A stretch of DNA of 44,550 nt from Prevotella sp. (GTDB taxonomy: Bacteria > Bacteroidota > Bacteroidia > Bacteroidales > Bacteroidaceae): the NCBI GenBank assembly GCA_017471245.1, contig JAFUVB010000024.1:1-44550 (forward strand), given 5' to 3'. Below, piece after piece: positions 9,518 through 44,403 of this stretch (position 1 is its first letter; each line of letters opens with the position of its first letter). The notes beneath the pieces are model-generated. The model ran no database searches, was not told the origin of the DNA, and saw nothing but the letters and a program-made list of their open reading frames with translations. The position numbers were made by a program, and so were the translations under genes.

Positions 9518-9648
9518 CAAAACCTATGGTTTCATGCTTCAAAAACATAGGTTTCACTGCCCAAGAACTATGGTTTCGCACCTCAAAACCTATGTTCTTG
9601 CAACCCAAAACCTATGCTTTTGTCAACAGGTATCTGGTTTCTGCGCTT
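9518..9648. repeat. 22-bp-pitch array, ACCTATG word, locus 1
   Basis: Five units of exactly 22 bp start at 9518, 9540, 9562, 9584 and 9606, followed by a degenerate sixth to 9648. Each has a 15-bp word close to CAAAACCTATGGTTT and a 7-bp spacer that differs in every unit. The word is quasi-palindromic (AAACC...GGTTT). Unit 2 carries it in the opposite orientation (ACATAGGTTT). Confidence 0.85.
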
Positions 9649-10010
9649 AAGAAAAAGTGGCTTTTGTTGTAATTGTTTACTAATCAATAAATTACAAAAC
9701 ACTCTTCAAAACTCGCGTATTTCGCGCCCGATTGATTGTTTGTGAATAATCTCGCCCGTATTTGAGCCAAAGAATCGGATTTTCCATGACAATTTCATAC
9801 ACAAGTATTGCTCGGTTCCCGCAGACTTCATCGTGTATGACCTGCAGCCTGAAGGGCCCTCAATGAATAATGAGAACACTGACAAAAGTAAACTCATTGC
9901 ATAATTCCAGAATCGAACTCACGCTAATTTTCTTTTGCGTAACAGTCGTATGAATCCTCCACAGCATTCGTTTCCGTCATCTGTTCCTATGCTCTGAAAT
10001 CAGTTTCCGG

Positions 10011-10086
10011 CATTCGGCTTCTTTTCTTATTTTCATGGAAACGGATATGACGCATCCGTCAATGCAGACTACAGTTTAGCCGAATG
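10011..10086. repeat. Nested inverted repeat upstream of rplS promoter
   Basis: CATTCGGCT (10011-10019) pairs with AGCCGAATG (10078-10086). Between them ACGGAT...ATCCGT forms a smaller hairpin (10041-10059). Both lie upstream of the rplS promoter, so they are not in its leader. Function unknown. Confidence 0.4.
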
Positions 10087-10138
10087 GCTTCTTTTTTAGG
10101 TGATTTTGGTGTAAAAAACACAAATAAAAGGCGAAATC

Positions 10139-10170
10139 TTTTGTCGGTTGAGGAAAATGTTGTACCTTTG
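10139..10170 (+). promoter_or_regulatory. rplS promoter
   Basis: TTTTG (10139-10143) is followed after 19 bases by TACCTTTG (10163-10170), matching the Bacteroidetes consensus. It would give a leader of roughly 85 bases before the rplS ATG. Confidence 0.65.
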
Positions 10171-10259
10171 CATCCGCTTTTTCGACGTAACCGATGGAAG
10201 GAAGAAGAGTTGCCTGTCTATGTTGCGCGAAACTAAATCATTCATTAAACAATAAAACA

Positions 10260-10625
10260 ATGGATTTAATTAAAGTTGCTGAAGAAGCATTTGCAACAGG
10301 CAAAAAGCATCCCAGTTTCAAGGCTGGCGACACTATCACTGTTGCTTACAAGATCATCGAGGGTTCAAAAGAGCGTATCCAGCTCTACCGTGGTGTGGTT
10401 ATCAAGATTTGCGGACATGGTGAAAAGAAACGTTTCACGGTGCGCAAGATGTCAGGAACAGTAGGTGTGGAGCGTATTTTCCCGTTAGAAAGCCCGAACA
10501 TTGAGAGCATTGAGGTGAACAAGATCGGTAAGGTGCGTCGCGCCAAGCTGTATTATCTGCGCAAGCTTACTGGTAAGAAGGCTCGCATTGCAGAGAAGAG
10601 AACACCCGTTGCCACAGCTAAGTAA
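10260..10625 (+). CDS. rplS: 50S ribosomal protein L19
   Basis: 121 residues. L19 sits at the interface of the two ribosomal subunits. The family is clear from [49 protein letters not shown] and the basic C-terminus [19 protein letters not shown]. The ATG at 10260 gives the normal length; an in-frame extension to 10194 would add a non-conserved stretch. A short alanine-rich tail (RTPVATAK) extends past the usual end. The gene is alone, with its own promoter (10139-10170) and a strong terminator at 10651. Confidence 0.98.
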
Positions 10626-10650
10626 GACAAACTCTCATGGCATGAGGAAT

Positions 10651-10688
10651 AAAAAGAGGTTCCGCCGCAAGGCGAGAACCTCTTTTTT
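10651..10688 (+). terminator. rho-independent terminator after rplS, probably bidirectional
   Basis: AAAAGAGGTTC pairs with GAACCTCTTTT around a CGCCGCAAGGCGA loop that can itself pair (CGCC/GGCG), followed by a T run. The A run on the left side could also serve the converging CapA-like gene ending at 10707. Confidence 0.85.
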
Positions 10689-10706
10689 GTTTTCCTACAC
10701 CAATAT

Positions 10707-11774
10707 TTATCTGCGCTTCATCCTGATGTTTCCCTGATGGTCGATGGCGGCGCTGCTTGCGGGAACATCCGCTTCGCTCAGCATTTTCATCTGTCGTGCC
10801 GCGCCTTTGTTCTTATCCCAGCGCGGACCGAGCCCTCTGCGCTGCACGAAAGAGTGGATTCTGCCGCTCAAAAATTGCCCTTCGCCATTGATCTTGATCT
10901 CCACCACAGGTGCCTGACCTGATATTCCCTTCAGGCTGATGCCGTATGGCGTGCAGAAATTACCAAGGCTGTAGGCGATGAAACGTCCCTTGTAGACCTC
11001 CACGCAGCGCACCACGTGAGGACCATGACCATAGACCACGTCGGCTCCGAGGTCGATGCAATAGTGTGCCAGCTCCCTCAGCGAGCCGCGGTTTTCCTTG
11101 AAAAACTCCTCCTTACCGTAGGGCAGGTGGCTCCGTGTGCGCCCTTCTGCTCCTCCGTGGAACGAAACCACGATGATGTCAGCCCGGTTTTGCAGCGCCA
11201 GGATCACCCTTTTCACCGTCTGCAGGTCGGTATGCCGCAGCGTATAGGGGTTATGGCCGAAGGCGCAGATGCCTATTCGCTTTCCCTTTCGCTTGATCAC
11301 GGCAGCCTCGAAGCGCCCTTTCACACCGGCATACTTGATTCCCTGTCCGTGGAGAGCCTGCTCTGTTGATAAAATACCTTCCTCCCCGAAGTCGTTGGCA
11401 TGGTTGTTTGCCATGCTCAGAAAGTCGAAACCGGCATCGCGGAGCAGCGGTGCGAAGCTTGTGGGAGTGCGGAATGCGTAGTTGTTGAGCGTGTCTTTCT
11501 TCGTGCTTTTGCCACCGTCGCACAGCGGTCCTTCGAGGTTTCCGAGTGCGATATCGGCTCTCCTGAGCACCTGTTTTGTGTCGCGAAACAGGAACGCGCC
11601 GTCTTTATAGGGCAGCAGGGTGTCAGGATAGGTGGTTCCCATCATGATGTCGCCCACCATCGCAAGTGTGATGGTGTCGCCCGCGGCCTCTGTCGGCGGC
11701 ATGCCGTATATATGAGAAAAGCAGGCCGAAAGCCAGCCTGCCACTATTGTTATTAAGAGATGGATGCGTTTCAT
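10707..11774 (-). CDS. CapA-family (poly-gamma-glutamate synthesis-like) metallophosphatase-fold protein
   Basis: 355 residues with an N-terminal hydrophobic export segment. It carries the CapA family signature: VGDIMMGTTYPD near residue 40, ALGNLEGPLCD, SMANNHANDFGEEG, VVSFHGGAEGR, and GADVVYGHGPHVVR then YSLGNF near the end. The fold is that of calcineurin-like phosphoesterases, with Asp, Asn and His residues placed to bind metal. In Bacillus CapA takes part in poly-gamma-glutamate export. There are no capB/C partners here, so its substrate is unknown. It starts three bases after the NlpC/P60 stop, so the two likely form one operon of envelope enzymes. Confidence 0.85.
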   Translation of the reverse strand: MKRIHLLITIVAGWLSACFSHIYGMPPTEAAGDTITLAMVGDIMMGTTYPDTLLPYKDGAFLFRDTKQVLRRADIALGNLEGPLCDGGKSTKKDTLNNYAFRTPTSFAPLLRDAGFDFLSMANNHANDFGEEGILSTEQALHGQGIKYAGVKGRFEAAVIKRKGKRIGICAFGHNPYTLRHTDLQTVKRVILALQNRADIIVVSFHGGAEGRTRSHLPYGKEEFFKENRGSLRELAHYCIDLGADVVYGHGPHVVRCVEVYKGRFIAYSLGNFCTPYGISLKGISGQAPVVEIKINGEGQFLSGRIHSFVQRRGLGPRWDKNKGAARQMKMLSEADVPASSAAIDHQGNIRMKRR

Positions 11775-11777
11775 GGG

Positions 11778-12350
11778 CTACATCACGCGCCGTGCACCAA
11801 TATATCGGCGAGCGTAATAGCCGTCGGTGGAATTGCTTACCTTCACTCCCTCTTTCGAACTGGCATGAATGAAGGTGAATGTCTTTGTTTCCGGATCCAC
11901 GTCGACCACGATTCCCACATGTCCCACGCCACGTCCGCTGCTCGGACTGGTAAAGAACACCAGGTCGCCGCGCTGCATTTCGCTGTTCTTGATAGGCACA
12001 TTCTTGGCGTATTGGTCGCGCGATGAGCATCCAATCTGTTTGTTCATCTGCCCGTAGACATAGCTTGTGAAGCCCGAACAGTCGAAGGCATACGGTCCTT
12101 TACTGCCGCTGCGGTAGCGTGCTCCGATATGCGAGAAAGCCTCGTCCATCAGGTTGTTCACCGCCATAGCGTCGTAGGAATTATACTCTGCCTCACCTCC
12201 GTTGTAGAGAAAGTCGAAATTGTCGATTTCGATATATCGCTCTTCAGTCTTCTGAACCTTGCGCACCGGCTTCTTCTTCCGCTTCGCATCCGTTGTGGAA
12301 AGGGAAGATATAAATATCAACAATGCACAAAGTATTATTTTTTTACTCAT
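11778..12350 (-). CDS. NlpC/P60 family cell-wall endopeptidase
   Basis: 190 residues from the ATG at 12350, which opens a signal peptide (MSKKIILCALLIFISSLSTTDA); an in-frame TTG at 12359 is less likely. A basic linker is followed by the NlpC/P60 catalytic domain (about 70-190). The nucleophile Cys lies in YAFDCSGFTSYVY, the catalytic His in VGHVGIVVDV, and a third polar residue in FIHASS. These enzymes cut D-gamma-glutamyl-diamino acid bonds in peptidoglycan stem peptides outside the cytoplasm. It is probably co-transcribed with the CapA-like gene downstream. Confidence 0.9.
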   Translation of the reverse strand: MSKKIILCALLIFISSLSTTDAKRKKKPVRKVQKTEERYIEIDNFDFLYNGGEAEYNSYDAMAVNNLMDEAFSHIGARYRSGSKGPYAFDCSGFTSYVYGQMNKQIGCSSRDQYAKNVPIKNSEMQRGDLVFFTSPSSGRGVGHVGIVVDVDPETKTFTFIHASSKEGVKVSNSTDGYYARRYIGARRVM

Positions 12351-12458
12351 TTTCTTCAAGTTAGTATCTTAAAAATTTGTTGGTTCGAGATACCCACTCA
12401 AACCGTTTGTAATACAAAGAGCGGACAAGAAAAACCACTCCTCTTCGTGATTACATTG

Positions 12459-12466
12459 CAAAGATA
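12459..12466 (-). promoter_or_regulatory. -7 box upstream of the NlpC/P60 gene
   Basis: TATCTTTG on the minus strand, about 109 bases before the ATG at 12350. No good -33 TTTG at the usual distance. Confidence 0.4.
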
Positions 12467-12666
12467 CGAAAAAAAATGCAGCCGGAAAAGCGGGTTTACA
12501 TCTTTTTGGATATGCAGAAAAGGCGGATTTCTTGTCCTTTACTTCCCCTTACGGGCTATGATACAATCGTTTACGGCAAATGTCGATAAGGAAAAGTTTA
12601 ACCTTTTCTGTTCACTTTTTTTAATAAAAATCGTTCTTTTTCATGCGGGCGATAGCTTTGATTTTT

Positions 12667-12798
12667 CAAAACCTATGGTTTCAGCCTTCAAAAACATAGG
12701 TTTTGAGCTTCAAAAGCATAGGTTTTGACCCCCAAAAGCATAGGTTTTGCGCCCCGAAACCATAGTTTTTCGACCTCGAAAGCATAGGTTTTGTAAAC
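12667..12798. repeat. 22-bp-pitch array, ACCTATG word, locus 2
   Basis: Six consecutive units of exactly 22 bp (132 bp, no indel) start at 12667, 12689, 12711, 12733, 12755 and 12777. Unit 1 has the forward word CAAAACCTATGGTTT; units 2, 3, 4 and 6 carry the reverse-complement type (CATAGGTTTT), and unit 5 reads ACCATAGTTTT. Spacers of 7 bp differ between units. It lies between the NlpC/P60 promoter and the terminator of the DUF4831 gene. Confidence 0.88.
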
Positions 12799-12807
12799 CG
12801 ATAGCAA

Positions 12808-12835
12808 TAAAAAAGGTGAAGATTATTTCTTCACC
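12808..12835 (-). terminator. Terminator overlapping the end of the DUF4831 gene
   Basis: On the minus strand GGTGAAGA (from 12835) pairs with TCTTCACC (to 12815) and is followed by TTTTTT. The stop codon (12823-12825) lies in the hairpin loop, so the last codons double as the terminator arm. Confidence 0.8.
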
Positions 12836-13887
12836 ATTTCCGTTTTTATTGTGTCCACGTTGCCCGTCACGGGGTTATATATCAGGCTGGTGAACAGCTT
12901 TTTGCCGAAGAGTTCGTTGTCGAGCGGCAGCGTTTTGCCGAATTGTGCGGCGTAAAACTCCTTTGAACCCAGTTCCTGATCGATCTTATAGAGCGTTATT
13001 TTGATCTTTCCAGGCAGGTTGGCATAGATGTTTGCATCGTCGCGACCTTTCTTGGCGCCCTCCACGGTGGCAGTGTTGCTCACCGTTTTGTGCAGGTCTT
13101 CCACCTTAATATAATAAGGTGCGCCCGCGAGATCGTCGGTATCGGTGAGTCCGAACTTAGAAGAGAACCTGAAGAGCAGCTGTTCCTCGGTGGCTTTTTC
13201 AGGCACGATGGTGATCACCGTCTCCACTGTGTCCTTCACCGTTGTGCCTTCGAAGAGTTGCAGCAGTGCCGTTTCCTGCGTGTTCAGGTTGTTAAGCATG
13301 ATGCGCAATTGCTCTCCGTCTTTGGGCATAAAGTCGGCCTGACCTTTGTTCAGCTGACTTTTGCTCTCGCGGATGTCATAGATTTCCTGCGCCGTAAGTT
13401 CTGCCATCTTCGCCATGCTGCCCGCTGAGAGGATGTCTTGAGTGAGGTAGTCGCGCGCATTGAGTGGCATTGGCTTGGGCGCCGCCACAAATCCTGCTGC
13501 CGGTTCTGGCGGTGTAACCTCTGCGTTCACGCCCATGATGATGCCCTGTTCGTCAACTTTCACGCTGGTGATGGAGTGCTTCGTGTCAATGGCAGGTGTG
13601 AACACCTTTGCCGTGTCGGGCACTCCGCGGCTGCTCATCTTAATGCCCAGGATGCGATATGTGGTCTCCGGCTCGGTTGCCACGTCTTTTTTCTTGAGGA
13701 ATCTCTCTGCATACATGCATAAGTCGCCCGGTTCCTTTGCCGTTTTTTCTATCAGGATGCTGAAGTCTACTGCCGTTTTCGGCAGGTAATAGGATGCTCC
13801 CTCGGTCACGTTCTGTGCCGTTGTGCCTACTGAAAACAAAGAGGATAGGGCGAAAACAAGAATACTCTTGTTGCGATAGCTTTTCAT
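12823..13887 (-). CDS. DUF4831 family exported protein
   Basis: 354 residues from the ATG at 13887 (an ATG at 13905 would add six). A signal peptide (MKSYRNKSILVFALSSLFSVGTTAQ) precedes a mature part typical of the Bacteroidetes family DUF4831: YYLPKTAVDFSI, then CMYAERFLKKKDV, DARDYLTQDIL-like and AQEIYDIRESKSQL segments, and a C-terminal domain with NDELFGKK-like and YNPVTGNVDTI motifs. Function is unknown in the family; it is likely periplasmic or outer-membrane associated. It follows the nnr gene with a 45-base gap and may be co-transcribed. Confidence 0.8.
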   Translation of the reverse strand: MKSYRNKSILVFALSSLFSVGTTAQNVTEGASYYLPKTAVDFSILIEKTAKEPGDLCMYAERFLKKKDVATEPETTYRILGIKMSSRGVPDTAKVFTPAIDTKHSITSVKVDEQGIIMGVNAEVTPPEPAAGFVAAPKPMPLNARDYLTQDILSAGSMAKMAELTAQEIYDIRESKSQLNKGQADFMPKDGEQLRIMLNNLNTQETALLQLFEGTTVKDTVETVITIVPEKATEEQLLFRFSSKFGLTDTDDLAGAPYYIKVEDLHKTVSNTATVEGAKKGRDDANIYANLPGKIKITLYKIDQELGSKEFYAAQFGKTLPLDNELFGKKLFTSLIYNPVTGNVDTIKTEMVKK

Positions 13888-13932
13888 AAATGATATTGTT
13901 TGCATTTTCTTGAATACTGGATAAATCGTTTC

Positions 13933-15450
13933 TTAGTCGTTGATTCGGCGGAAAGCCTTCGGCAGGTATCTGATGATGTCGCCGGCAATCATGCTCTCCA
14001 TGCCCAGTTCCTTGGCTGCCAGGTCGCCGGCAAGGCCGTGCAGGTACATGCCCACTATGCAGGCGTCGCCGTGTTCATAGCCTCTTGCCAGCAGAGCGGT
14101 GATGATTCCCGACAGCACATCGCCGCTTCCAGCCGTTGCCATGCCCGCATTGCCGGTGCTGTTGAACACCACATGGCCGTTGGGCATGCACAAAGCGGAG
14201 TAGTGACCCTTCAGTATGATGTAGGCATTCAGGTGTTCCGCCAGGTCTCTTGCGCGGGTAAGCCTTTCGAAACTGTCGGCACAGCTGGCGCCGTTCAGGC
14301 GGTCGAACTCCTTGGGATGTGGTGTCATGATGATGTTTTTGGGCAGTTGCTGCAGCCATGCCCTGTGGTTGGAGAGGATGTTCAGTGCGTCGGCATCCAG
14401 CACGATGGGGCATTGCGACCGCCTCACCTGTGATATCAGGGCGATGGCAGTGTTCTCCTGCTGTCGCAGTCCCGGCCCCATGCACACGGCATCAATATCT
14501 TCTGCGTCGATGGTTTCTGAGAAATACTTCTCGTCGTGGTCGATGCTCATCACGGCTTCCGGCACACTGATCTGCAGAATGTCGTTGTTTCGGCGGGGTG
14601 TATGCACAATTACCTTGCCCACACCCGAGCGCAGACAGGCCTTCGTGGCAAGCACCGCGGCTCCCGCCATGCCGTAACTGCCGGCTATGATCAGTGCTGT
14701 TCCCATGTTTCCCTTATGGGCAAACTCGTTGCGATGGCGCAATTTGCTGCGAATGTCGTTCTCGTCGGTAACGGTATACAGGGCATCTATCTTCTTGATA
14801 CCTTCCTCGCTGAGCCTGATGTCGAGCACTTTCAGCTTGCCGATGAACTGCTGGTTCTCCGGGAAAAGGAACGAAAGCTTCTTCTGTTGCAGGGTGAGCG
14901 TCATGTCGGCCTTGATGATGTTGGCTCGCACATTGTAGGTATTGTCCTCGGTCATCAGCCCCGACGGGATGTCGATGCTCACGATATACGACGGCGACTG
15001 GTTGATATATTTCACCAAAGAGGCGAAACCGCCCGACAACGGCTTGTTAAGTCCGGAGCCGAAGAGCCCGTCAACGACCAGCATATTGGCTTCGAGCACG
15101 GGCGGATCGAACTCGTCGCGCACCTCGATGAAGTCTTTTATCTTGCGGCTGTCCAAGATTCGCTGCGCGTTTTTGGCGCAGTCTTCCGACAGTTTCCCGT
15201 TGATGTTGAACAGATAGACGCTCACTTTGTAGCCCTGATCTGCCAGCATGCGTGCCACTGCCAGTGCATCGCCACCGTTGTTTCCCGGTCCGGCGAACAC
15301 CACAACTGGGGTGTTGTTGGTCCAGGAGTCAGTTATGGCGCGCGTCAACACCTTGGCTGCGCGCTCCATCAGGTCGATAGAGCGTATCGGTTCATGCTCC
15401 ATCGTGTAGTGGTCGAGCTCATGTATCTGAGCACTTGTGAATATCTTCAT
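13933..15450 (-). CDS. nnr: Bifunctional NAD(P)H-hydrate epimerase / ADP-dependent hydrate dehydratase
   Basis: 505 residues. This is the repair enzyme for damaged (hydrated) NADH and NADPH. The N-terminal epimerase domain (about 1-215) shows FAGPGNNGGDALAVARML and VVDGLFGSGLNKPL. The C-terminal dehydratase domain (about 225-505) shows GTALIIAGSYGMAGAAVLAT, ACLRSGVGKVIVHTP, VLDADALN, TPHPKEFDRL and NAGMATAGSGDVLSGIITALLA, the ADP/ATP-binding segment. The ATG at 15450 gives MKIFTSAQIHELD, the normal family start; the frame runs open further upstream but only through A/T-rich promoter DNA. A -7 box ends six bases before this ATG. Confidence 0.95.
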   Translation of the reverse strand: MKIFTSAQIHELDHYTMEHEPIRSIDLMERAAKVLTRAITDSWTNNTPVVVFAGPGNNGGDALAVARMLADQGYKVSVYLFNINGKLSEDCAKNAQRILDSRKIKDFIEVRDEFDPPVLEANMLVVDGLFGSGLNKPLSGGFASLVKYINQSPSYIVSIDIPSGLMTEDNTYNVRANIIKADMTLTLQQKKLSFLFPENQQFIGKLKVLDIRLSEEGIKKIDALYTVTDENDIRSKLRHRNEFAHKGNMGTALIIAGSYGMAGAAVLATKACLRSGVGKVIVHTPRRNNDILQISVPEAVMSIDHDEKYFSETIDAEDIDAVCMGPGLRQQENTAIALISQVRRSQCPIVLDADALNILSNHRAWLQQLPKNIIMTPHPKEFDRLNGASCADSFERLTRARDLAEHLNAYIILKGHYSALCMPNGHVVFNSTGNAGMATAGSGDVLSGIITALLARGYEHGDACIVGMYLHGLAGDLAAKELGMESMIAGDIIRYLPKAFRRIND

Positions 15451-15455
15451 CCGTG

Positions 15456-15463
15456 CAAAAATA
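15456..15463 (-). promoter_or_regulatory. -7 box next to the nnr start codon
   Basis: TATTTTTG on the minus strand ends at 15456, five bases before the nnr ATG at 15450. A second identical box (15464-15471) lies just upstream. The -33 element is weak. Confidence 0.45.
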
Positions 15464-15557
15464 CAAAAATAATATAAAAAGAGGGCATTCTCAACGCATA
15501 TTTTTATTAATTTTGTTGTAATTTCTCGTTTTCTGTGCTTATTTGGCAGATTTTGCC

Positions 15558-17223: not shown

Positions 17224-17313
17224 GCATGCTGCGCTTGTAAGATAATGCACGCGATTTTTGCAAAAAATGCACGCGATGCTTGCAAAAAGAGGCATGCCGG
17301 GCTTGCCAAAAAG
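17224..17313. repeat. 22-23-bp-pitch array, GC-rich word, between hpt and adk
   Basis: Four units start at 17224, 17247, 17269 and 17292 (steps 23, 22, 23). Words are GCATGCTGCGCTTGT, GCACGCGATTTTTGC, GCACGCGATGCTTGC and GCATGCCGGGCTTGC, each followed by an A-rich spacer. The last is nearly a perfect 15-bp palindrome. Same design as the ACCTATG arrays but with another word. Confidence 0.7.
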
Positions 17314-20824: not shown

Positions 20825-20891
20825 TTATCCGACACCCGCTGCGACACCTGCTGCGGGTGTCGCAGCGGGTGTCGCAGCGGGTGCCGGATAA
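20825..20891. repeat. GC-rich 67-nt hairpin built from 12-bp units
   Basis: Arms 20825-20848 and 20868-20891 match at 23 of 24 positions, and the 19-base loop pairs again (GCTGC/GCAGC). The sequence is 12-bp units: GACACCCGCTGC and GACACCTGCTGC in one direction, then GGGTGTCGCAGC twice and a partial copy in the other. No T run follows, so it is not a standard terminator. It stands out sharply from the AT-rich surroundings. Confidence 0.85.
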
Positions 20892-21017: not shown

Positions 21018-21127
21018 AGAAACCTATGGTTTTGATAGCCAAAAACGTATTTCTTACCGCTTGAAACCTATGCTTTTGATGAATGAAACATACGCTTTTG
21101 ATTGTCAATACCTATGCTTTTCCAATG
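21018..21127. repeat. 22-bp-pitch array, ACCTATG word, locus 3
   Basis: Five units of exactly 22 bp at 21018, 21040, 21062, 21084 and 21106. Words include AGAAACCTATGGTTT, TGAAACCTATGCTTT and CAATACCTATGCTTT; unit 2 is degenerate. The 7-bp spacer of the last unit is also the first unit of the 7-bp tandem repeat that follows. Confidence 0.82.
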
Positions 21128-21211
21128 CCCAATGTTCAACGGTCAATGCTCAATGTTCAATGCTCAATGCTCAATGTTCAATTTTCAACGGTCAATGGTC
21201 AACGGTCAATG
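21121..21211. repeat. Thirteen 7-bp tandem units, consensus NTCAATG
   Basis: The 91 bases divide into 13 units of 7 bp with no indel. The first base varies (C, T or G) while TCAATG or TCAACG is kept in most units. It continues in phase from the last spacer of the neighbouring 22-bp array. Confidence 0.85.
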
Positions 21212-21353: not shown

Positions 21354-21743
21354 ATGAAAAAGAAAAGGATTCTATTAATTCCCATGCTGCTGTTTGCGGC
21401 AGTACTGACCACGGGGTGCAGCTGCAGTGATGATGAAAATGACAATTTCATAAGCTATATCGCTGCGAAAGATATTAAGTTGTATGGAGACATACGGCAG
21501 CTTTACAGAATGAACCTTGTTGAAAAGAAGGACTTACCGCAGTGGGTACAAAACCGTTTGGATGAGGTAGCCAACTTTCCTGAAGCCTACGTAATTAAGG
21601 CAAAGAGTGAAGGTAAAACAATATATATTATACCCAGCCTTTCGTCTTTAGATCCATGGAACTTCTTTACGGAGGACGGCAGCAGGTGGAATTACTCCGA
21701 CCAAGACTACTTATCCGACATCACAATCATATATTTTGTTTGA
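21354..21743 (+). CDS. Small lipoprotein, cassette paralogue 1
   Basis: 129 residues. The signal peptide MKKKRILLIPMLLFAAVLTT ends at the lipobox GC, followed by SCSDDENDN. The start region, signal peptide and promoter are nearly identical to those of the gene at 22311, but the mature part (YGDIRQLYRMNLVEKKDLPQ, then AYVIKAKSEGKTIYIIPSL) is unrelated to it. The mature segment has a mixed alpha/beta look and no recognisable domain; small inhibitor- or immunity-like lipoproteins have this size. Function unknown. Confidence 0.7.
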   Translation: MKKKRILLIPMLLFAAVLTTGCSCSDDENDNFISYIAAKDIKLYGDIRQLYRMNLVEKKDLPQWVQNRLDEVANFPEAYVIKAKSEGKTIYIIPSLSSLDPWNFFTEDGSRWNYSDQDYLSDITIIYFV

Positions 21744-21809
21744 TATAGTATCGGTCAAAATACACATTTAAACAATAGGATGAAAAATCTAATTAACACC
21801 ATTACAACT

Positions 21810-22160
21810 ATGAAAATGAAAAGAATTCTATTAATTCCCATACTGCTGTTTGCGGCAGTGCTGAATGTTGGTTGCAGCAGCGACAAAGAACTTAGGGAAA
21901 TTGGTTGCTTTGAAGGATGTATAAGTAGGATAAACGACGAATCAGTTCTATTAACTATCATTGAATCACCCGAAAACAGCAAAGACTTCTCTCCAACGTG
22001 GATAATCTGTAAGAGATCCGATCTATCCGGAAGAAAGATTCAGTTGAATGATGTCATTTCATTCTCTATTATCAAATATAAAGCTATCACCCGGCAGTCA
22101 ACAATTACGACAGGATGGGAAGTCCCAGAATATGAATGTAGCGTAAAACCATGTGAATAG
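21810..22160 (+). CDS. Small lipoprotein, cassette paralogue 2
   Basis: 116 residues from the ATG at 21810, chosen because the bases before and after it match the start regions of its two neighbours (ACATTACAAC-type leader, then MKMKRILLIPILLFAAVLNVGC). An ATG at 21780 is in frame but lies in the unshared leader. The mature part (CFEGCISRINDESVLLTIIESPENS, then ISFSIIKYKAITR) looks like a small beta barrel of OB type, a guess from the pattern. No separate promoter is seen; probably co-transcribed with gene 21354. Confidence 0.65.
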   Translation: MKMKRILLIPILLFAAVLNVGCSSDKELREIGCFEGCISRINDESVLLTIIESPENSKDFSPTWIICKRSDLSGRKIQLNDVISFSIIKYKAITRQSTITTGWEVPEYECSVKPCE

Positions 22161-22240
22161 TGTAAGGTTGATAGCAGGGCTATGATTTGGAGTAGTTTCT
22201 GGAGAAGTTTATTACACCAAAACATCTTCTTGCATAATTA

Positions 22241-22272
22241 TCTGGAAGATTGGATACCTTTTAGTAATTTTG
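22241..22272 (+). promoter_or_regulatory. Promoter of the 22311-25253 genes (copied cassette)
   Basis: TCTG (22241-22244), 20 bases, TAATTTTG (22265-22272), in the same surroundings as the promoter at 21285-21316. Confidence 0.55.
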
Positions 22273-22310
22273 CCATTGTAAAACTAACGTATAAATAAAA
22301 CATTACAACG

Positions 22311-22811
22311 ATGAAAAAGAAAAGGATTCTATTAATTCCCATGCTGCTGTTGTCGGCAATGATGAATGTTGGTTGCAGCAGCGATGAAGAACCCAACGGC
22401 TCATTACGAACAAGAAGTATCGAGAACTCAGGGTGCAAGCAAGGTAACAATGCAAAAGTGCAAAGCCGTGCATCTGACAGACCTGATTTATTTACTGAGA
22501 CCATTACGCTTACTGCCCAAAAGGGCGGATGGCTACGGGTGGAGCATAAGGATGCCTTGTTCCCTTGTTGCATAGATAATATTGCTGTACAAGTGTCAAT
22601 GGAAGACAATCTGATCACAGCTCAGGAGAATATGATTGGCTCGGATGCCTGCAACTGTATCTGCCCTTATGACGTAAACTTTGAAGTTGGAAAACTAACA
22701 GAAGGAAACTACACGCTGATTGTTGAGACAGAATCGTTTGTAAGGTTAAAAAAGGAAATACACTATAGCAATAACTATAATGAAACAATTGTAATCAGAC
22801 ACATAAAATGA
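22311..22811 (+). CDS. Small lipoprotein, cassette paralogue 3, coupled to C13 peptidase
   Basis: 166 residues with the shared signal peptide (MKKKRILLIPMLLLSAMMNVGC), then SSDEEPNG. The mature part has beta-strand-like segments (TITLTAQKGGWLRVEHK, NYTLIVETESFVRLKKEIHY) and a cysteine-rich patch (DACNCICPYD); an immunoglobulin-like fold is plausible. Its stop overlaps the start of the C13 peptidase gene by four bases (ATGA). Secreted cysteine proteases of Bacteroidales are often encoded beside lipoprotein inhibitors, so an inhibitor role is a reasonable guess but nothing in the sequence proves it. Confidence 0.7.
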   Translation: MKKKRILLIPMLLLSAMMNVGCSSDEEPNGSLRTRSIENSGCKQGNNAKVQSRASDRPDLFTETITLTAQKGGWLRVEHKDALFPCCIDNIAVQVSMEDNLITAQENMIGSDACNCICPYDVNFEVGKLTEGNYTLIVETESFVRLKKEIHYSNNYNETIVIRHIK

Positions 22812-38514: not shown

Positions 38515-38540
38515 TTTCAAAAAAACATCCTTATTGTCAA

Positions 38541-38551
38541 GGGACGGTTCT
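38541..38551 (+). repeat. Isolated GGGACGGTTCT motif as in the RAYT element
   Basis: The same 11 bases occur in the REP-like units at 1393-1458. Here the motif stands alone between the small operon and the AlbA_2 gene, and may be a solo REP relic. An 11-base match in 44 kb is suggestive only. Confidence 0.3.
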
Positions 38552-38617
38552 CCTGATCTATGATTCCTCATTCAAACATTAGATGCAGTACATAGTTAAC
38601 AATTGGAATAAAATTTG

Positions 38618-38625
38618 TAACTTTG
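38618..38625 (+). promoter_or_regulatory. -7 box of the AlbA_2 gene
   Basis: TAACTTTG, 16 bases before the ATG at 38642. -33 weak. Confidence 0.45.
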
Positions 38626-38641
38626 CAAACAAAATAGGAAT

Positions 38642-40234
38642 ATGGCACTGGCAATAGACATAGAAGACCTGCTGAACAAGCAGAAAATAGAGTCCAATAG
38701 GATTGAGTTCAAGAAAGGTTGGAATCCTGCAAGCATATACCATAGCGTGTGTGCTTTCGCTAATGATTTCGACGATCTTGGAGGTGGGTATATATTGATT
38801 GGCGTGGATAGCGATGATGATACAGGTCTGGCTATCCGTCCTGTCGAAGGGGTACCGATAGAGAAGATTGACGGCATTCTTCAGGATATGGTGAGCTACA
38901 ACAACAAGATGTCACCGTATTATATGCCCAGAACGAGTGTTGAAGAGGTGGATGGAAAGCAGGTGCTGGTGATATGGTGTCCTGCTGGCATCAACAGGCC
39001 ATATTCTGTACCTGAGAATGTGACTGCAAAGAGCGGTAGCAAGGAATACTTCTATATCCGGAGCGGTACAAGTAGCATCATAGCCAAGGGCGAGGTACTG
39101 GACGAACTTCGTGAATTAGCCAGTCGTGTTCCGTTTGATGAACGAGGGAATCCAGATATTAAAGTAGAAGACATATCTACGCTATTGTTACGTGAGTATC
39201 TGGTTAAAGTGGGCAGCAAATTGGCTAACGAACTATACGAAAGGCCACTTAGCGAGATTCTTGAGCAGATGGATTTATTTGTTGGCCCATCAGAAAACCG
39301 TATGCTGAGGAATGTGGCAGCAATGATGTTCTGTGAGAATCCAAGTAAATTCTTCAAAAGGACACAGGTGGAAATCGTATTCTTCCCAGAAGGACGGTTG
39401 GTGAATCCTAACAATCTCTACGAGGCTCCTGTCATCACAGGTTCCGTTACACAGATTATTGAGCGGACGCTGGAGTATTTGAATCGCATGGTGGTGATGC
39501 AGACCATCATCAAGCCCAAGAATGACAACCACAGTATCAAGTTCTATACCTATCCCTACCAGGCATTAGAGGAAAGTATTACGAACTCGATATATCATCG
39601 CGACTATCGGGAATGGGAGCCTGTGGTAATAACGGTGGAGCCAAAGGGTATTACCATCCAGAACGTAGGTGGGCCGGATCGTAGCATCTCTGCTGCTGAC
39701 ATCAGTCGTGGCGAGTTGCTTATTTCCAAGCGTTACCGTAACCGTCGCTTGGGTGAATACTTGAAAGAATTGGAGATGACAGAAGGACGAAGCACTGGTA
39801 TTCCTACCATCCAGAATGTGCTGAAGGCTAATGGTTCGCCTCGCGCTATCGTCGTTACAGATGAAGAGCGCACCTTCTTCCGCATCACCATCCCCTGCCA
39901 TGAGGCTGCAGGCAATATTATAGCCGATATTGCGACAAGAGAAAAAGCACCAGATAGTTCTCAGGAAGAAGGCAAGATCGTCCCTGATGTCCTGAAGAAT
40001 GTCCTAAAAAATGTCCAGAAAGATGTCCTAAAAGAACTATCTGAAAGACAGATAGTTATACTTGAACTGATATGCAAATCACCAGAGGCGACTCTGATAG
40101 AAATGTCCGAAAAACTCCATGTTTCAGGCAAAACTATTCAACGTGAATTTGCTTCCATCAGGAAACTGGGAATAGACATTGTACGTAAAGGCGGTCGAAA
40201 AAAAGGTCGATGGGAAATCAAAAATAGTAAGTGA
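38642..40234 (+). CDS. AlbA_2-domain ATP-binding transcriptional regulator-like protein
   Basis: 530 residues. The N-terminal AlbA_2 (Schlafen-type) domain (about 10-140) has ESNRIEFKKGW and GGGYILIGVD. A middle HATPase_c_4-like domain (about 300-420) has YQALEESITNSIYHRDY and GRSTGIPTIQNVLKANGSP. A repetitive helix (DVLKNVLKNVQKDVLKEL, about 455-475) leads to a C-terminal winged helix (LHVSGKTIQREFASIRKLGIDIVRKGGRKKG). Such proteins are frequent in accessory DNA of Bacteroidetes; the role is uncertain (regulation or defence). It lies just before a tRNA gene, a common integration site. Confidence 0.8.
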   Translation: MALAIDIEDLLNKQKIESNRIEFKKGWNPASIYHSVCAFANDFDDLGGGYILIGVDSDDDTGLAIRPVEGVPIEKIDGILQDMVSYNNKMSPYYMPRTSVEEVDGKQVLVIWCPAGINRPYSVPENVTAKSGSKEYFYIRSGTSSIIAKGEVLDELRELASRVPFDERGNPDIKVEDISTLLLREYLVKVGSKLANELYERPLSEILEQMDLFVGPSENRMLRNVAAMMFCENPSKFFKRTQVEIVFFPEGRLVNPNNLYEAPVITGSVTQIIERTLEYLNRMVVMQTIIKPKNDNHSIKFYTYPYQALEESITNSIYHRDYREWEPVVITVEPKGITIQNVGGPDRSISAADISRGELLISKRYRNRRLGEYLKELEMTEGRSTGIPTIQNVLKANGSPRAIVVTDEERTFFRITIPCHEAAGNIIADIATREKAPDSSQEEGKIVPDVLKNVLKNVQKDVLKELSERQIVILELICKSPEATLIEMSEKLHVSGKTIQREFASIRKLGIDIVRKGGRKKGRWEIKNSK

Positions 40235-40381
40235 ATGATGTGCTGGCAGTGCCATCTACTAAAGCTACTTCTGAGAATACAACTGCAACTGTAAATGCAC
40301 CTGCAAAACTTAATAAAACGCAAATTTGATGAGTAGCAGACCATATTGAATGGTGCAAATGTGGTGCATTTAGAGAATGTA

Positions 40382-40422
40382 AAAATCCGCAAGCGGCTGA
40401 TATTCAGCTTCTTGCGGATTTT
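40382..40422 (-). terminator. Terminator of tRNA-Lys, probably bidirectional
   Basis: AAAATCCGCAAG (40382-40393) pairs with CTTGCGGATTTT (40411-40422), with an inner GCTGA/TCAGC stem. On the minus strand it ends in TTTTT, five bases after the tRNA 3' end begins the trailer. Confidence 0.85.
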
Positions 40423-40426
40423 CTTG

Positions 40427-40499
40427 TGATCCGTTTGGGGCTCGAACCCAAGACCCCAACATTAAAAGTGTTGTGCTCTACCTGCTGAGCTAACGGATC
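40427..40499 (-). tRNA. tRNA-Lys (anticodon TTT)
   Basis: 73 nt on the minus strand: acceptor GATCCGT/ACGGATC, D arm GCTC/GAGC, anticodon stem CAACA/TGTTG with loop CTTTTAA (anticodon TTT), T arm TTGGG-TTCGAGC-CCCAA, discriminator A. All four stems pair fully. CCA is not encoded. It has a consensus promoter at 40547-40577 and a terminator downstream. Confidence 0.96.
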
Positions 40500-40546
40500 A
40501 GTGATTATTCATCTGCCACTTTACGGTGGTGTTTGAAAATCGGCTG

Positions 40547-40577
40547 CAAAGTTACAATGTTTTTTTGAGATTGCAAA
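40547..40577 (-). promoter_or_regulatory. tRNA-Lys promoter
   Basis: TTTG (40574-40577), 19 bases, TAACTTTG (40547-40554) on the minus strand; an exact consensus match. The tRNA starts 47 bases downstream. Confidence 0.7.
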
Positions 40578-40615
40578 ATTTTTGGAATGTTTTTGCCAAT
40601 CTTTTTTTAATTCAA

Positions 40616-40743
40616 GCGCATTTTCTGTCGATTTCCCTCGCTTTTTTCTGCTCATTCCTGTGTTTTATGCAGTTCATTCCAGTTCTTAATGCAGCTATTC
40701 CAGTTCTTAATGTTGCAATACCTGCGCTTAATGCAGCTGTTCC
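40616..40743. repeat. 21-22-bp-pitch array reaching into the permease gene
   Basis: Six units start at 40616, 40638, 40659, 40681, 40702 and 40723 (lengths 22, 21, 22, 21, 21, 21). Consensus of the last three is close to GCGCTTAATGCAGCTATTCC. The array ends 16 bases inside the permease gene, supplying its stop codon and last residues. Poorer dyad symmetry than the other arrays. Confidence 0.7.
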
Positions 40744-41963
40744 TGTGCATTTTCCGCCATGTCTTCATGGGTAATGGCTTCCTGAGTCAGCGCTTCATCC
40801 TTGTTTTCTTCCTTCAAAGCACTTTGCGTGTCACCTTCAATGATGCTCATTCCCGTATTGTCGTTGCCTGAAAGGAATCCCTCATCTAACGGAATGTCTT
40901 CGTTCTCGCGCGTCACGTACCTTTGATAATAGGCAATGAGCAGCGTGGTGAGCGGCAGTGCAAGAATCAGTCCGATGAAACCCAGCAGGGCTCCCCATAC
41001 CGACAGCGAGAGCAGCAGGATGGCAGGGTTCAGTCCCATTGCCTTTCCCATAATCTTCGGCGTGATCACCATGTCGATGATAATCTGCACGATGATGAAG
41101 ATGGATACAGCCATTGCCAGTATCATCCAGAAGTTCTGTCCTGTATCCGCCGCTTTCAGCAGGGCGAGGAATGCGGTGGGAATCAGTGCGAAGGTGTGGA
41201 GATAGGGCACGAGATCCATGATGCCGATGAGTATACCCAAGCCGATTGCCATGGGGAAGTCGATGATGGTGAATCCGATGCAGAAGAGGATACCCATGCA
41301 GAGCGCCACCAGTCCTTGTCCGCGGATATAGGCATTGAGTGCTTTCTCCACGTCGCTCATCAGTTCCTGCCAGAAGGGGCGGGCTTTCTTCGGGAATATC
41401 TTGATCCAGTTGTTGGTGAGATACTCATAGTCGAGCAGGATGAAGAACATGTACATCAGGGTGATCAGCGATGCCACGATGCTGATAATAACGCTGGCGG
41501 TCTGTCCTAAGACATTGAACACCTGTGGCATGGCCGACCGTATGGTTTCCGCCACATCTTTCCGCTTGAAGAAGTCTTCGATGGTTTCGCGGTGATCGCG
41601 TATCCAGTCCTTGATCATTGCCGACAGGTCGTTAGTGTTCGTCTGCTGCTGAACATACTGCGTAACCAATTGTCCCAGCTTGCCGAATTGCTCAATCATG
41701 GGCGGTATGATGAGGTAGATCACTCCGGCTACGATGGCGATGACGAAGAGCAATGTCAGGATGATGCTCAGCGCACGTGATTTGACGTGCATCCTGTATT
41801 GAATGAACTTGACGATGGGGTAGACCAGATAAGCCAACAGCCATGCCACGAAGAACGGCAACAGTACGCTGCTGAGGTAGTTCACCGCATATAACACGAT
41901 GATCACGATGAGGCCGATGCCTGCCCATCTGATGAATTTGTCGAAAGTGATTTCCTTCTGCAT
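40728..41963 (-). CDS. AI-2E/PerM family membrane permease
   Basis: 411 residues with about eight membrane helices. Features of the family: FVAWLLAYLVYPIVKFIQ, LITLMYMFFILLDYEY, GQGLVALCMGILFCIGF, GLGILIGIMDLVPYLHTF and the C-terminal ALPLTTLLIAYYQRYV. The polar tail of about 60 residues (EDIPLDEGFLSGND ... AENAQEQLH) is not conserved, and its last five codons belong to the 21-bp array. Family members are linked to autoinducer or sodium/proton movement; the substrate is unknown. It follows tdk by 20 bases. Confidence 0.88.
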   Translation of the reverse strand: MQKEITFDKFIRWAGIGLIVIIVLYAVNYLSSVLLPFFVAWLLAYLVYPIVKFIQYRMHVKSRALSIILTLLFVIAIVAGVIYLIIPPMIEQFGKLGQLVTQYVQQQTNTNDLSAMIKDWIRDHRETIEDFFKRKDVAETIRSAMPQVFNVLGQTASVIISIVASLITLMYMFFILLDYEYLTNNWIKIFPKKARPFWQELMSDVEKALNAYIRGQGLVALCMGILFCIGFTIIDFPMAIGLGILIGIMDLVPYLHTFALIPTAFLALLKAADTGQNFWMILAMAVSIFIIVQIIIDMVITPKIMGKAMGLNPAILLLSLSVWGALLGFIGLILALPLTTLLIAYYQRYVTRENEDIPLDEGFLSGNDNTGMSIIEGDTQSALKEENKDEALTQEAITHEDMAENAQEQLH

Positions 41964-41983
41964 AGATTATGAAAACCTTCTTT

Positions 41984-42589
41984 TTACTTCTGTGGTTCCT
42001 GCTTGTCTTGCGCGTCGGCAGCCAGTGCCTTCTGGTAGCACTCCCTGCACAGCGGCTCGTATTCCTGTGTCTCGCCCAATAGCACGCGCTTGTCGTTTTT
42101 CACCAGTCGATGACTGACGTAAGCCAGCGAACCGCACTTCACGCAGATGGCATGCACCTTGGTCACTTCGTCGGCAATGGCGCACAAGCCGGGAATAGGT
42201 CCGAAGGGAACGCCTTGGAAATCCATGTCGAGACCCGCCACAATCACGCGAATGCCCCGGTATGCCAGTTCGTTGCACACCCTCACCAAGCCTTCGTCGA
42301 GAAACTGCGCTTCGTCGATGCCGATCACGTCGTTCTCTCCCGCCAGCAGTAGGATCGACGATGAGGAGTCGATGGGCGTGCTCGGTATGGTGTTCTGATC
42401 GTGGCTCACCACGTCGATGTCGCTGTATCGGGTATCAATCGACGGCTTGAAGATTTCCACCTTCTGGCGAGCAAACTTGGCACGTTTCAGTCTCCTGATC
42501 AGTTCCTCCGTTTTTCCGGAGAACATGGATCCGCACACCACTTCAATTCTTCCAGGGCGGTGTGATTCCCCAATCAAATTCTCTGTCAT
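41984..42589 (-). CDS. tdk: Thymidine kinase
   Basis: 201 residues, type II thymidine kinase (thymidine to dTMP, salvage). P-loop [15 protein letters not shown], catalytic Glu in [12 protein letters not shown], lasso region [15 protein letters not shown], and zinc ligands in CVKCGSLAY and CRECYQ. The start ATG at 42589 lies eight bases from a strong promoter -7 box, so the mRNA should be nearly leaderless. Confidence 0.96.
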
Positions 42590-42596
42590 TTGGCTA

Positions 42597-42628
42597 CAAA
42601 GTTACGAATCTGTTTTAAAAATTGCAAA
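42597..42628 (-). promoter_or_regulatory. tdk promoter, near-leaderless
   Basis: TTTG (42625-42628), 20 bases, TAACTTTG (42597-42604) on the minus strand; the -7 box ends seven bases before the ATG. Confidence 0.6.
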
Positions 42629-42678
42629 GAAATAGGTGATTTTTTTACTTTCAGAGAACAATTATTCAATATTTGCGT

Positions 42679-42686
42679 TATCTTTG
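42679..42686 (+). promoter_or_regulatory. rsmI -7 box, near-leaderless
   Basis: TATCTTTG ends nine bases before the rsmI ATG at 42696. No clear -33 TTTG. Confidence 0.5.
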
Positions 42687-42695
42687 CATCCGACT

Positions 42696-43394
42696 ATGGG
42701 AATATTATATGTAGTACCGACGCCTGTCGGCAACATGGAAGACATGACGCTGCGCGCCATACGTGTATTGAAAGAGGCCGATCTGATATTGGCAGAAGAC
42801 ACCCGCACGTCTGGAATCCTACTAAAGCATTTCGAGATCAAGAACCAGCTGATGTCGCACCATAAGTTCAATGAGCATGGAACGTCGGCAGGCATCGTGG
42901 AAAGGCTGAAGTCAGGTGCTACCATCGCCCTCATCAGCGATGCCGGAACGCCAGGTATCAGCGACCCCGGATTCTATCTGGTGCGCGAGGCAGTGGCTGC
43001 AGGCATTGAGGTGCAGTGCCTCCCGGGGGCAACGGCATTCGTGCCGGCATTGGTTTCCAGCGGACTGCCCGACGACCGTTTCTGCTTCGAGGGCTTCCTC
43101 CCGCAGAAGAAAGGGCGGCAGACCCGCTTGGAGAGCCTGAAGAATGAGACGCGCACCATGATCTTCTATGAGTCGCCATACCGCGTGCTCAAGACGCTAC
43201 AGCAGTTTGCCGAGTGCTATGGCGAAGACCGTCAGGTGAGCTGTTGCCGCGAAATCAGCAAGGTGCACGAGGAGAGCGTGCGCGGCACGTTGGCTGAGGT
43301 GATCGCCCATTTCAAGGAAACAGAACCAAGAGGCGAGTTCGTTATCGTGCTTGCCGGTAAGAATACGAAAGAATACAAACAAAAAACAGATTGA
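42696..43394 (+). CDS. rsmI: 16S rRNA 2'-O-methyltransferase RsmI
   Basis: 232 residues. It methylates the 2'-hydroxyl of C1402 of 16S rRNA with SAM. Tetrapyrrole-methylase fold motifs are clear: YVVPTPVGNMEDMTLRAI, AEDTRTSGILLKHF, ISDAGTPGISDPGF, CLPGATAFVPALVSSGLP, FEGFLPQKKGRQ and FYESPYRV. The start at 42696 (MGILYVVPTPVGN) is the family start; upstream codons lie in the promoter. Divergent from tdk; two bases before the downstream lipoprotein gene. Confidence 0.96.
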   Translation: MGILYVVPTPVGNMEDMTLRAIRVLKEADLILAEDTRTSGILLKHFEIKNQLMSHHKFNEHGTSAGIVERLKSGATIALISDAGTPGISDPGFYLVREAVAAGIEVQCLPGATAFVPALVSSGLPDDRFCFEGFLPQKKGRQTRLESLKNETRTMIFYESPYRVLKTLQQFAECYGEDRQVSCCREISKVHEESVRGTLAEVIAHFKETEPRGEFVIVLAGKNTKEYKQKTD

Positions 43395-43395
43395 T

Positions 43396-44244
43396 ATGAA
43401 GAAACTATTGTTTGTTGTGATCTGCGCCGCTGGCATGATCGCATGTACGAATGAGAAGCCCGCCCCCGTAATGCCGGACGGTGGACAGAACGACTCTCTG
43501 CAGAAGATTATCGAGCAGAAAGACAATGAGATTAACGACATCATGGGAACTCTCAACGAGATTCAGGAAGGTTTCCGTGAGATCAGTGAGGCTGAGGGGC
43601 GCGTCAGCGTTGCCAAGGGTGGCGAGCGTGCCGACAAGGCTCAGCAGATTCGTGAGAACATTCAGTTCATCTCTCAGCGCATGGCTCAGAACCGTGAGCT
43701 TATCAAGAAACTGCAGCAGCAGATGCGCGAAAGCACTGTGAAAGGCGAAGAGTTCCAGAAAACCATCGAGAGCATGCTGGCTCAGCTTGATGCCAAGGAC
43801 AAGGAGTTGCAGCAGCTGCGCGCCGACCTCGATGCAAAGGACATCCATATCTCCGAACTGGATGAGACTATCGCCAACCTGAACACCGATGTGAAGTCTT
43901 TGCAGAACGAAGGCGAGCAGAAGACACAGACCATCAACACGCAGGACAAGCAGCTGAACACCGCATGGTTTGTCTTCGGAACGAAGAAGGAACTCAAGGA
44001 GCAGGGCATTCTCGACGACGGAAAGGTGCTCCGCGGCAACTTCAACAAGAACTACTTCACGAAGATTGATATCCGCGTTGACAAGGAAATCAAGCTCTAT
44101 TCCAAGTCAGCAAGCCTGCTCACGCCGCATCCTTCGAGCAGCTACACGCTCACGCCGGATGCCAACAAACAGTATGTGCTGAAGATTACCAACCCGCAGA
44201 TATTCTGGAGCACCAGCAAATATCTTGTGATGCTGGTCAAATAA
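43396..44244 (+). CDS. Coiled-coil lipoprotein, Cbp1-like
   Basis: 282 residues. Signal peptide MKKLLFVVICAAGMIAC with lipobox, then a long coiled coil (about 35-195; EQKDNEINDIMGTLNEIQ, AQLDAKDKELQQLRADLDAK) and a C-terminal beta domain (TAWFVFGTKKELKEQGILDD, then FTKIDIRVDKEIKLYSKSA, ILLTPHPSSSYTLTPDANKQ-like). Pattern and size resemble the Cbp1 family of Bacteroidales surface lipoproteins named for collagen binding. NDSLQK contains a D(S/T)(hydrophobic) site, the O-glycosylation signal in Bacteroidetes. It follows rsmI by one base, so the two are co-transcribed. The adhesin role is only by family resemblance. Confidence 0.75.
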   Translation: MKKLLFVVICAAGMIACTNEKPAPVMPDGGQNDSLQKIIEQKDNEINDIMGTLNEIQEGFREISEAEGRVSVAKGGERADKAQQIRENIQFISQRMAQNRELIKKLQQQMRESTVKGEEFQKTIESMLAQLDAKDKELQQLRADLDAKDIHISELDETIANLNTDVKSLQNEGEQKTQTINTQDKQLNTAWFVFGTKKELKEQGILDDGKVLRGNFNKNYFTKIDIRVDKEIKLYSKSASLLTPHPSSSYTLTPDANKQYVLKITNPQIFWSTSKYLVMLVK

Positions 44245-44250
44245 AGCATT

Positions 44251-44290
44251 AAAAGTGGCACTTTTCATGAACGAGAGTGCCACTTTTTTT
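44251..44290 (+). terminator. Terminator of the rsmI-lipoprotein operon
   Basis: AAAAGTGGCACT (44251-44262) pairs with AGTGCCACTTTT (44276-44287), followed by further T residues. Confidence 0.85.
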
Positions 44291-44315
44291 GATTCATATC
44301 ATGGGTATGCTTCAG

Positions 44316-44403
44316 CAAATCAATTTAATTTACTCAGCAAATTAAATTGATTTACTTTTCAAATTAAATTGATTTGCAAGGTAAATTAAATTGATTTACT
44401 TTT
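44316..44403. repeat. 22-bp-pitch array, AAATTAAATTGATTT word
   Basis: Four units of exactly 22 bp at 44316, 44338, 44360 and 44382. Units 2-4 carry the 15-bp word AAATTAAATTGATTT; unit 1 carries its exact reverse complement (AAATCAATTTAATTT). The 7-bp remainder of each unit varies. Same design as the ACCTATG arrays, different word. Confidence 0.88.

Follow-up and report, generated by a model that had tools for sequence, protein, structure and literature searches.

What holds the length of a DNA repeat constant when its words change? The question is raised by four arrays of 22-bp units in a contig of a Prevotella sp. genome (JAFUVB010000024.1, positions 1 to 44,550; this whole stretch of 44,550 nucleotides is hereafter the window). 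We find that the lattice of these arrays (22-bp pitch, 7-bp core, inverted arms) is the constant part, that arms and cores both vary by clade, and that the arrays recur through the genus with a bias toward convergent gene ends. We tentatively read the units, at somewhat short of an even chance, as operator-like sites for a putative dimeric DNA-binding protein, with an architectural or insulating role beyond gene ends.

A preliminary description of the window had reported the four arrays, each with an exact 22-bp pitch over four to six units, and had divided the unit into a 15-bp word and a 7-bp spacer. The arrays and their pitch were confirmed; the 22-bp total also stands, and its division is better given, in register, as YAAAA-N7-TTTTR-N5, that is, inverted arms around an asymmetric 7-bp core with a 5-bp spacer. 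When orientations were read unit by unit, the core was found in either orientation within an array, as had been claimed, and spacers varied between units. The arrays, with their cores in order, are as follows.

Array 1, 9518-9627: five units of 22 bp with arms YAAAA/TTTTR-like; cores CCTATGG, ACATAGG, ACTATGG, CCTATGT, CCTATGC; orientations + - + + +.

Array 2, 12667-12798: six units; cores CCTATGG, ACATAGG, GCATAGG, GCATAGG, CCATAGT, GCATAGG; orientations + - - - - -.

Array 3, 21018-21127: five units, more degenerate; cores CCTATGG, ACGTATT, CCTATGC, CATACGC, CCTATGC.

Array 4, 44316-44403: four units of a second word family, with YAAAT/ATTTR arms in place of YAAAA/TTTTR; cores CAATTTA, TAAATTG, TAAATTG, TAAATTG; orientations - + + +.

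The ACCTATG word has 17 matches in the window at up to three mismatches (shuffled sequence, mean 1.19 and maximum 4), and a search of the window's genome (G000, 3.73 Mb) for the first word, with two mismatches allowed, finds it 443 times and the reversed word 15 times. The word of array 4, AAATTAAATTGATTT, which had been noted as different, proved to be a second genome-wide family (321 near-matches versus 11 for the reversed control). In 444,550 bp of G000, 83 pairs of adjacent matches lie no more than 120 bp apart, 66 of them at exactly 22 bp, and among these 66 neighbours 51 share an orientation and 15 are opposed. By eye, cores are common to the arrays of G000, and flanks and spacers are not. 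The preliminary description had named the lack of a lag-22 excess in intergenic DNA as grounds for dropping its proposal; a word-agnostic count over the intergenic DNA of G000 gave 25 places at lag 22, with between 0 and 5 at every other lag in the range 14-34.

The geometry was then scanned in three genomes with mutually unrelated cores, requiring at least three units with arms YAAAA/TTTTR and allowing core lengths of 4-11 with ten pitches each (80 combinations). Of 63 arrays, 58 fell at core 7 and pitch 22: 16 in G000, the window included (with three more at 9,22), 36 in G083 (one at 10,22) and six in G009 (one at 8,22), and the same scan of the array-less G023 returned none. The main cores are CCTATGS in G000, CCTATTG, CCTACGC and SAGCCGC in G083, and GATGACC in G009. 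Word-agnostic intergenic lag-22 places number 25 in G000, 44 in G083, 27 in G016 (Prevotella falsenii) and five in G009, lag 22 being the main peak in the first three and a small one in the fourth; genomes without arrays of this A4/T4 arm type gave 0 (G136), 1 (G101), 7 (G117), 0 (G191) and 2 (G023). The half-site YAAAA appears in most array-bearing genomes seen, preceded by TG in some, and the spacer prefers the letters C A (A/T) T G in P. histicola, G083 and G016. The constant pitch with changing words that had been described for the window thus holds across the genus.

The seven lag-22 places of G117, found in 100 kb, show that the arms can change as well. By eye, four of them are built as CTTGAA-7-TTCAAG-3, again 22 bp in total, and a scan of the same 100 kb with arms TTGAA/TTCAA placed three arrays at (7,22) and none at the other 79 combinations. 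The cores (including CGATACC, GATGCCC and GGTGCCC) resemble those of A4/T4 species. Genome-wide, the two-unit TTGAA/TTCAA pattern has 213 matches in G117 and none in the control; it has 1-5 matches in 13 other genomes of 398, and its control is non-zero in eight genomes (highest 17, in G172). Since G117 keeps the 7/22 geometry with arms of another type, it is the lattice that stays constant, and arms as well as cores vary by clade. At three G117 places (L419 15096, L420 4372 and L439 1501) the outer arms are of the A4/T4 type (AAAA, TTTTG) and the inner arms TTGAA/TTCAA. Units of 22 bp such as TTGGAGGCTCCATTCAA, perhaps a third arm type, occur in a few genomes (L434 in G227, L437 in G389, L438 in G054).

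We surveyed 398 genomes of the genus with a two-unit A4/T4 pattern at one mismatch, together with a reversed control. At least one match was found in 211 genomes and, by hand count, at least 20 in 62, of which 49 also reach three times the control; the control itself matches some arrays with C...G cores, so that the 13 genomes dropped include a real case (G016). Outside the genus, the highest counts in an order sample of 295 genomes were 17 (control 52) and 16 (control 12), with the clearest excess in G429 (7 versus 0, very AT-rich sequence), and no other genus exceeded 4 in a family sample of 199 genomes from 22 genera. Single arrays of two or three units with this lattice were seen in other genera of the family (G703, a CCTATTG pair; G719; G822; G728; G831, AT-rich). 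In these samples, therefore, arrays in large numbers are confined to the genus, and single ones also occur beyond it. When named species genomes were scanned for three exact units, at least 114 stretches were found; all 114 among the matches listed belong to Prevotella sensu lato (Prevotella, Hoylesella, Segatella, Leyella, Xylanibacter and Prevotellaceae metagenome-assembled genomes). On a PBP2 tree of 27 genomes, labelled by the A4 pattern only (so that G117 counts as array-less) and omitting G016, G378 and G167 of the 30 searched (gene broken or split), array presence requires six changes, at least four of them forced by starred branches; shuffled labels average 9.2 changes, with 13 of 500 shuffles as low as six, so some clustering is present too.

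The arrays also have a preferred place relative to genes. With genes from a simple codon-based caller and intergenic regions of at least 100 bp pooled from G000, G083 and G009, arrays occupy 30 of 66 convergent, 29 of 195 tandem and 5 of 81 divergent regions (Fisher p = 1.2e-8 for convergent versus the rest and 5.3e-4 for the divergent depletion), and one of 68 arrays overlaps a called gene. Array 1 sits between genes called as divergent, the sole such case of the G000 set; array 2 lies 29 bp past the 3' end of a gene on the minus strand (12823-13905), beside the following feature.

12815-12835, minus strand: predicted intrinsic terminator of the gene at 12823-13905, an 8-bp stem followed by TTTTTTATTG.

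This terminator overlaps the end of its gene, and array 2 starts just past it. Predicted terminators are found at 21 of 73 array-side 3' ends (40 of 236 other 3' ends), ahead of the array and never only inside it. We rejected a terminator role for the arrays on this ground, that predicted terminators, where present, come first.

The same order bears on the explanation that the arrays are RNA elements in transcript 3' ends (terminators, stabilising hairpins or RNA sponges), for which their place near 3' ends and the possible pairing of inverted units would speak. Single pairs do covary in single genomes: pair 1-17 in P. falsenii (z of 5.1 and 3.0) and G083 (2.6 and 1.7), 6-12 in G038 (4.8 and 3.8), 7-11 in H. 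saccharolytica (3.4 and 4.1) and 17-23 in G083 (3.1). The positive pairs differ by genome, however, and significantly negative values also occur (17-23 in P. histicola, z of -4.6; 8-10 in G000, -9.2), with 7-11 at -5.4 in P. histicola; pair 8-10 is anti-paired in P. histicola, P. pallens, G038, G000, H. saccharolytica and P. falsenii, and not in P. disiens, G083 or G009. Core pairing in G083 was set aside as a sign of RNA pairing, being trivial when units 2 and 3 carry different words. Since Watson-Crick covariation, within the unit (nine sets) and across the spacer (nine sets), is inconsistent across the nine genomes, hairpins are unlikely to be the selected form, which suits recognition of the duplex. 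An Rfam scan of the window at gathering thresholds matched only a tRNA and nothing on the arrays, and RNA would have no need of an exact DNA pitch; we give this explanation hardly any credence.

How the words change can be followed between G083 and its sister species P. falsenii, which align mostly at 90-93% identity in long blocks (some at 86-87%). Within the sequence covered, 11 of 53 G083 arrays were paired by both flanks and their sequences compared. One has been lost in P. falsenii, and because the right end of the element that carries it is kept this looks like a loss and not an empty site. The other ten pairs (40 units) differ at 14 of 400 arm positions, 28 of 200 spacer positions and 69 of 280 core positions, and at 1 of 240 of the inner six arm positions; because the units were picked from G083 and not from both genomes, the arm figure leans somewhat toward conservation, an effect we judge smaller than the difference seen, and one pair (L241:16480) is uncertain, its P. 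falsenii region having two arrays of which the better match was used. Core changes per unit are bimodal (none in 14 units, one in 11, two in one, and three or more in 14). Typically SAGCCGC faces CCTACGS with both arms unchanged and spacers often unchanged, and some replacements cover only 4 of the 7 bp (CCTA versus SAGC). Counted by element, unit 4 is SAGCCGC in 40 of 51 in G083, and in P. falsenii it is CCTACGC or CCTACGG in 12 of 20 and still CAGCCGC in 6 of 20. Arms stay, then, and cores are replaced as blocks. The comparison of orthologous regions proposed in the preliminary description thus shows words changing and one array lost, and its suggestion of a copying mechanism that keeps length but not sequence retains support from cores replaced between unchanged arms. 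Such switching needs very short conversion, strand exchange or strong selection, which these data do not separate.

Strand exchange would be expected if the units were core sites of a tyrosine-recombinase-like enzyme, acting at an asymmetric 7-bp overlap to swap or flip the core and alter unit number. A 7-bp asymmetric core in both orientations between inverted arms lies within the 6-8 bp of such overlaps, and the block replacements are limited to the core as this would predict. The conserved arms (5-7 bp) are shorter than is usual for such sites; some replacements span four of the seven bases and no more; short ectopic gene conversion gives the same pattern; and no linked recombinase turned up, none having been sought. 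We regard it as an improbable account.

Another explanation dispenses with a specific protein: A4/T4 tracts alternating every 11 bp would bend the helix, best under negative supercoiling, and the curved DNA would pin supercoils at gene ends. Predictions from wedge parameters gave median bends per 88 bp of 84-91 degrees in arrays of three genomes, against 31-37 degrees in other intergenic DNA, and 107-121 degrees with 5% untwisting (highest at 3-5%). Array medians also exceed those of windows matched for A4/T4 tracts, although the 95th percentile of the matched windows exceeds the array median in relaxed G000 and G083 and in untwisted G083. G117, with the same geometry and TTGAA/TTCAA arms, is hardly bent (30 versus 24 degrees in 66-bp windows, from only four arrays, one of them at a pattern-picked locus), so that curvature fits A4/T4 genomes and fails as a general rule. 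It also leaves the shared cores unexplained, and as the explanation of the arrays we consider it quite improbable.

The claim of the preliminary description that no named repeat class fits is not supported. In the open literature searched on Prevotella repeats the only match was PINSR (Naito et al. 2015, PMC4755523), a 188-bp dispersed intergenic repeat of the P. intermedia/nigrescens group with 177 and 184 copies in two P. intermedia strains and positive by polymerase chain reaction in P. falsenii and P. disiens. It is reported there as having neither terminal inverted repeats nor a known function and is described as specific to one clade and missing from the rest of Prevotella; the main text nowhere uses '22-bp', and section 3.4 gives no 22-bp inner units. 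In G016 and G083 an element of about 190-200 bp, with four 22-bp units as its middle part, is dispersed in many copies; in P. falsenii dozens of copies match at 74-91% identity, and by eye the ends of the G083 element (TGTAAA...TTTACA) are weakly inverted. Like PINSR it is intergenic, dispersed, of high copy number, of similar length and from the same species group, and we conclude from length, copy number and species, and not from a consensus alignment, that the P. intermedia-group copies are very probably PINSR. The window arrays have by eye none of this element's flanks and so are not PINSR, though the inner lattice is common to both. What was already known is thus very probably one clade's version of a 22/7 module that occurs across the genus with other arms and cores. 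Five stretches with arrays occur on IMG/VR viral contigs, three of them PINSR-like by eye (L374, L376, L377), possibly host DNA in provirus calls.

Other known repeats resemble the arrays in part. BrickBuilt (Klein et al. 2015, PMC4596501), a 23-nt intergenic minisatellite of another genus (Porphyromonas gingivalis and P. gulae), likewise combines constant with variable positions, measures about two helical turns per unit and lies in an element with leader and tail, and the same paper points to earlier observations of 22- and 23-nt tandem repeats in strain W83; as described there it differs in its 23-nt pitch, IS5-like terminal inverted repeats and direct repeats without a spacer, a distinction made by description and not by comparing unit sequences. 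Repetitive extragenic palindromes (REPs) and the bacterial interspersed mosaic elements that they compose are likewise short palindromes outside genes, present in many copies and in either orientation, with regular spacing within composite arrays. REPs are defined by a terminal GTAG/CGTC tag on a 20-40-bp palindrome (PMC3733652); the units here end in YAAAA/TTTTR without that tag (GTAG is present inside one G083 core), have a fixed 22/7 geometry and change their words by species. Clustered regularly interspaced short palindromic repeats were rejected, the arrays being varying 17-bp words with 5-bp spacers at many places and not identical repeats with unique spacers of about 30 bp, and Bacteroidetes promoter spacing did not fit. 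In plasmid iterons and operator arrays a spacing of about 22 bp puts protein sites on one face of the helix; here, by comparison, the arrays are dispersed at scores of chromosomal places with several kinds of word per genome.

The main rival to the operator-like reading is a function-free short mobile repeat, similar to REPs or miniature inverted-repeat transposable elements: a candidate machinery that needs the 22/7 geometry would copy units and elements, and survivors would be found where insertion is least harmful, between convergent genes. The dozens of P. falsenii copies, the patchy distribution on the PBP2 tree and the location bias, which is equally expected here, all favour it, and the P. 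intermedia-group element behaves partly so. An origin through REP-associated tyrosine transposases (RAYTs) was rejected, as the Y1 domain PF01797 is found in 10 of 23 array-rich and 13 of 30 array-less genomes (53 genomes, with G117 as array-less; 11 of 24 and 12 of 29 if it is moved), and in neither the array-bearing G083 nor the one-contig G350. The absence of terminal inverted repeats reported for PINSR also tells against mobility, as do cores shared in G000 without flanks or spacers and arms more conserved than spacers between species, which is not expected of neutral debris. On balance we hold it to be unlikely.

In the operator-like reading each unit would be a dyad, two inverted half-sites facing each other across the 7-bp core, read by a dimeric DNA-binding protein. 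With one site following directly on the next at 22 bp, or some two turns of the helix, neighbouring dimers would be set on the same face, where they may form a continuous nucleoprotein patch; patches past gene ends, chiefly between convergent genes, might then act as architectural or insulating elements (a roadblock to converging transcription, or a boundary of supercoils or of the nucleoid). Arms and cores would drift by clade as protein and sites co-evolve, and short conversion among units or copies may even out the cores and exchange them. The reading appears the simplest because of the fixed lattice, clade-specific half-sites, constrained arms and gene-end location, and we infer the architectural role from the convergent bias. 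The preliminary description, partly supported as a whole, had offered protein arrays on one DNA face, an idea that keeps support from the same geometry with arms and cores that differ from one species to another, its protein being a candidate. Several points weigh the other way. No binding protein turned up, no systematic search for one having been made; a single regulator would not usually have so many cores, or two or three word families in one genome; the convergent-end location is equally expected from selection against insertion elsewhere; and the P. intermedia-group arrays ride in a dispersed element as mobile DNA would. The patchy distribution, with G191 beside G000 on the PBP2 tree and devoid of arrays by the A4 pattern and of lag-22 places in 100 kb, further suggests that the element is dispensable. 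A fuller version, in which the genus inherits the fixed lattice and not its sequence, with clade-varying arms and with cores rewritten as blocks by core-limited conversion while a rapidly evolving DNA-binding protein changes along with them and assembles boundary patches where genes converge, is rather doubtful.

Extragenic repeats are usually grouped by sequence, and here the conserved trait is the geometry, so that a sequence search sees unrelated species-specific repeats, PINSR among them, and misses the class. Fixed spacing with species-specific words in many Prevotella genomes hints that something in the cell reads the spacing. If a protein does bind the arrays, a genus common in humans and in ruminants would possess a nucleoid or insulator system that is plastic in sequence. 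The switching of core blocks between sister species is a natural record of very short conversion or of co-evolution of site and protein.

The window holds further repeats and open reading frames (ORFs). Two places proposed earlier as additional arrays (17224-17290 and 40616-40743, the latter adjoining the 3' end of a leftward ORF) are indeed 21-22-bp tandem repeats and do not join the class, as no inverted arms around a 7-bp core were seen. A 7-bp (21-bp) repeat of CAATGCT/CAATGTT at 21123-21211 abuts array 3, and intergenic DNA of G000 also shows excesses at lags 12, 14, 21 and 28 and GAAGCAAGA repeats; the CAATGCT/CAATGTT and GAAGCAAGA repeats are perhaps a separate 7-bp class. An ORF at 1456-1914 on the minus strand resembles by eye, in its motif IYHVMLRGINRQDIF, a decayed Y1/RAYT transposase, with no Pfam match above cut-off, and two copies of a 33-bp repeat (GGGATCACGGGGACGGTTC...) lie beside it at 1393-1458. 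Just ahead of array 3, 12-bp repeats CGACACCCGCTG and GCGGGTGTCGCA, mutually near-inverted, occupy 20830-20883. Three small neighbouring ORFs beginning at 21354, 21780 and 22311 (21354-22811) share a near-identical lipoprotein-like N-terminal stretch and diverge afterwards.

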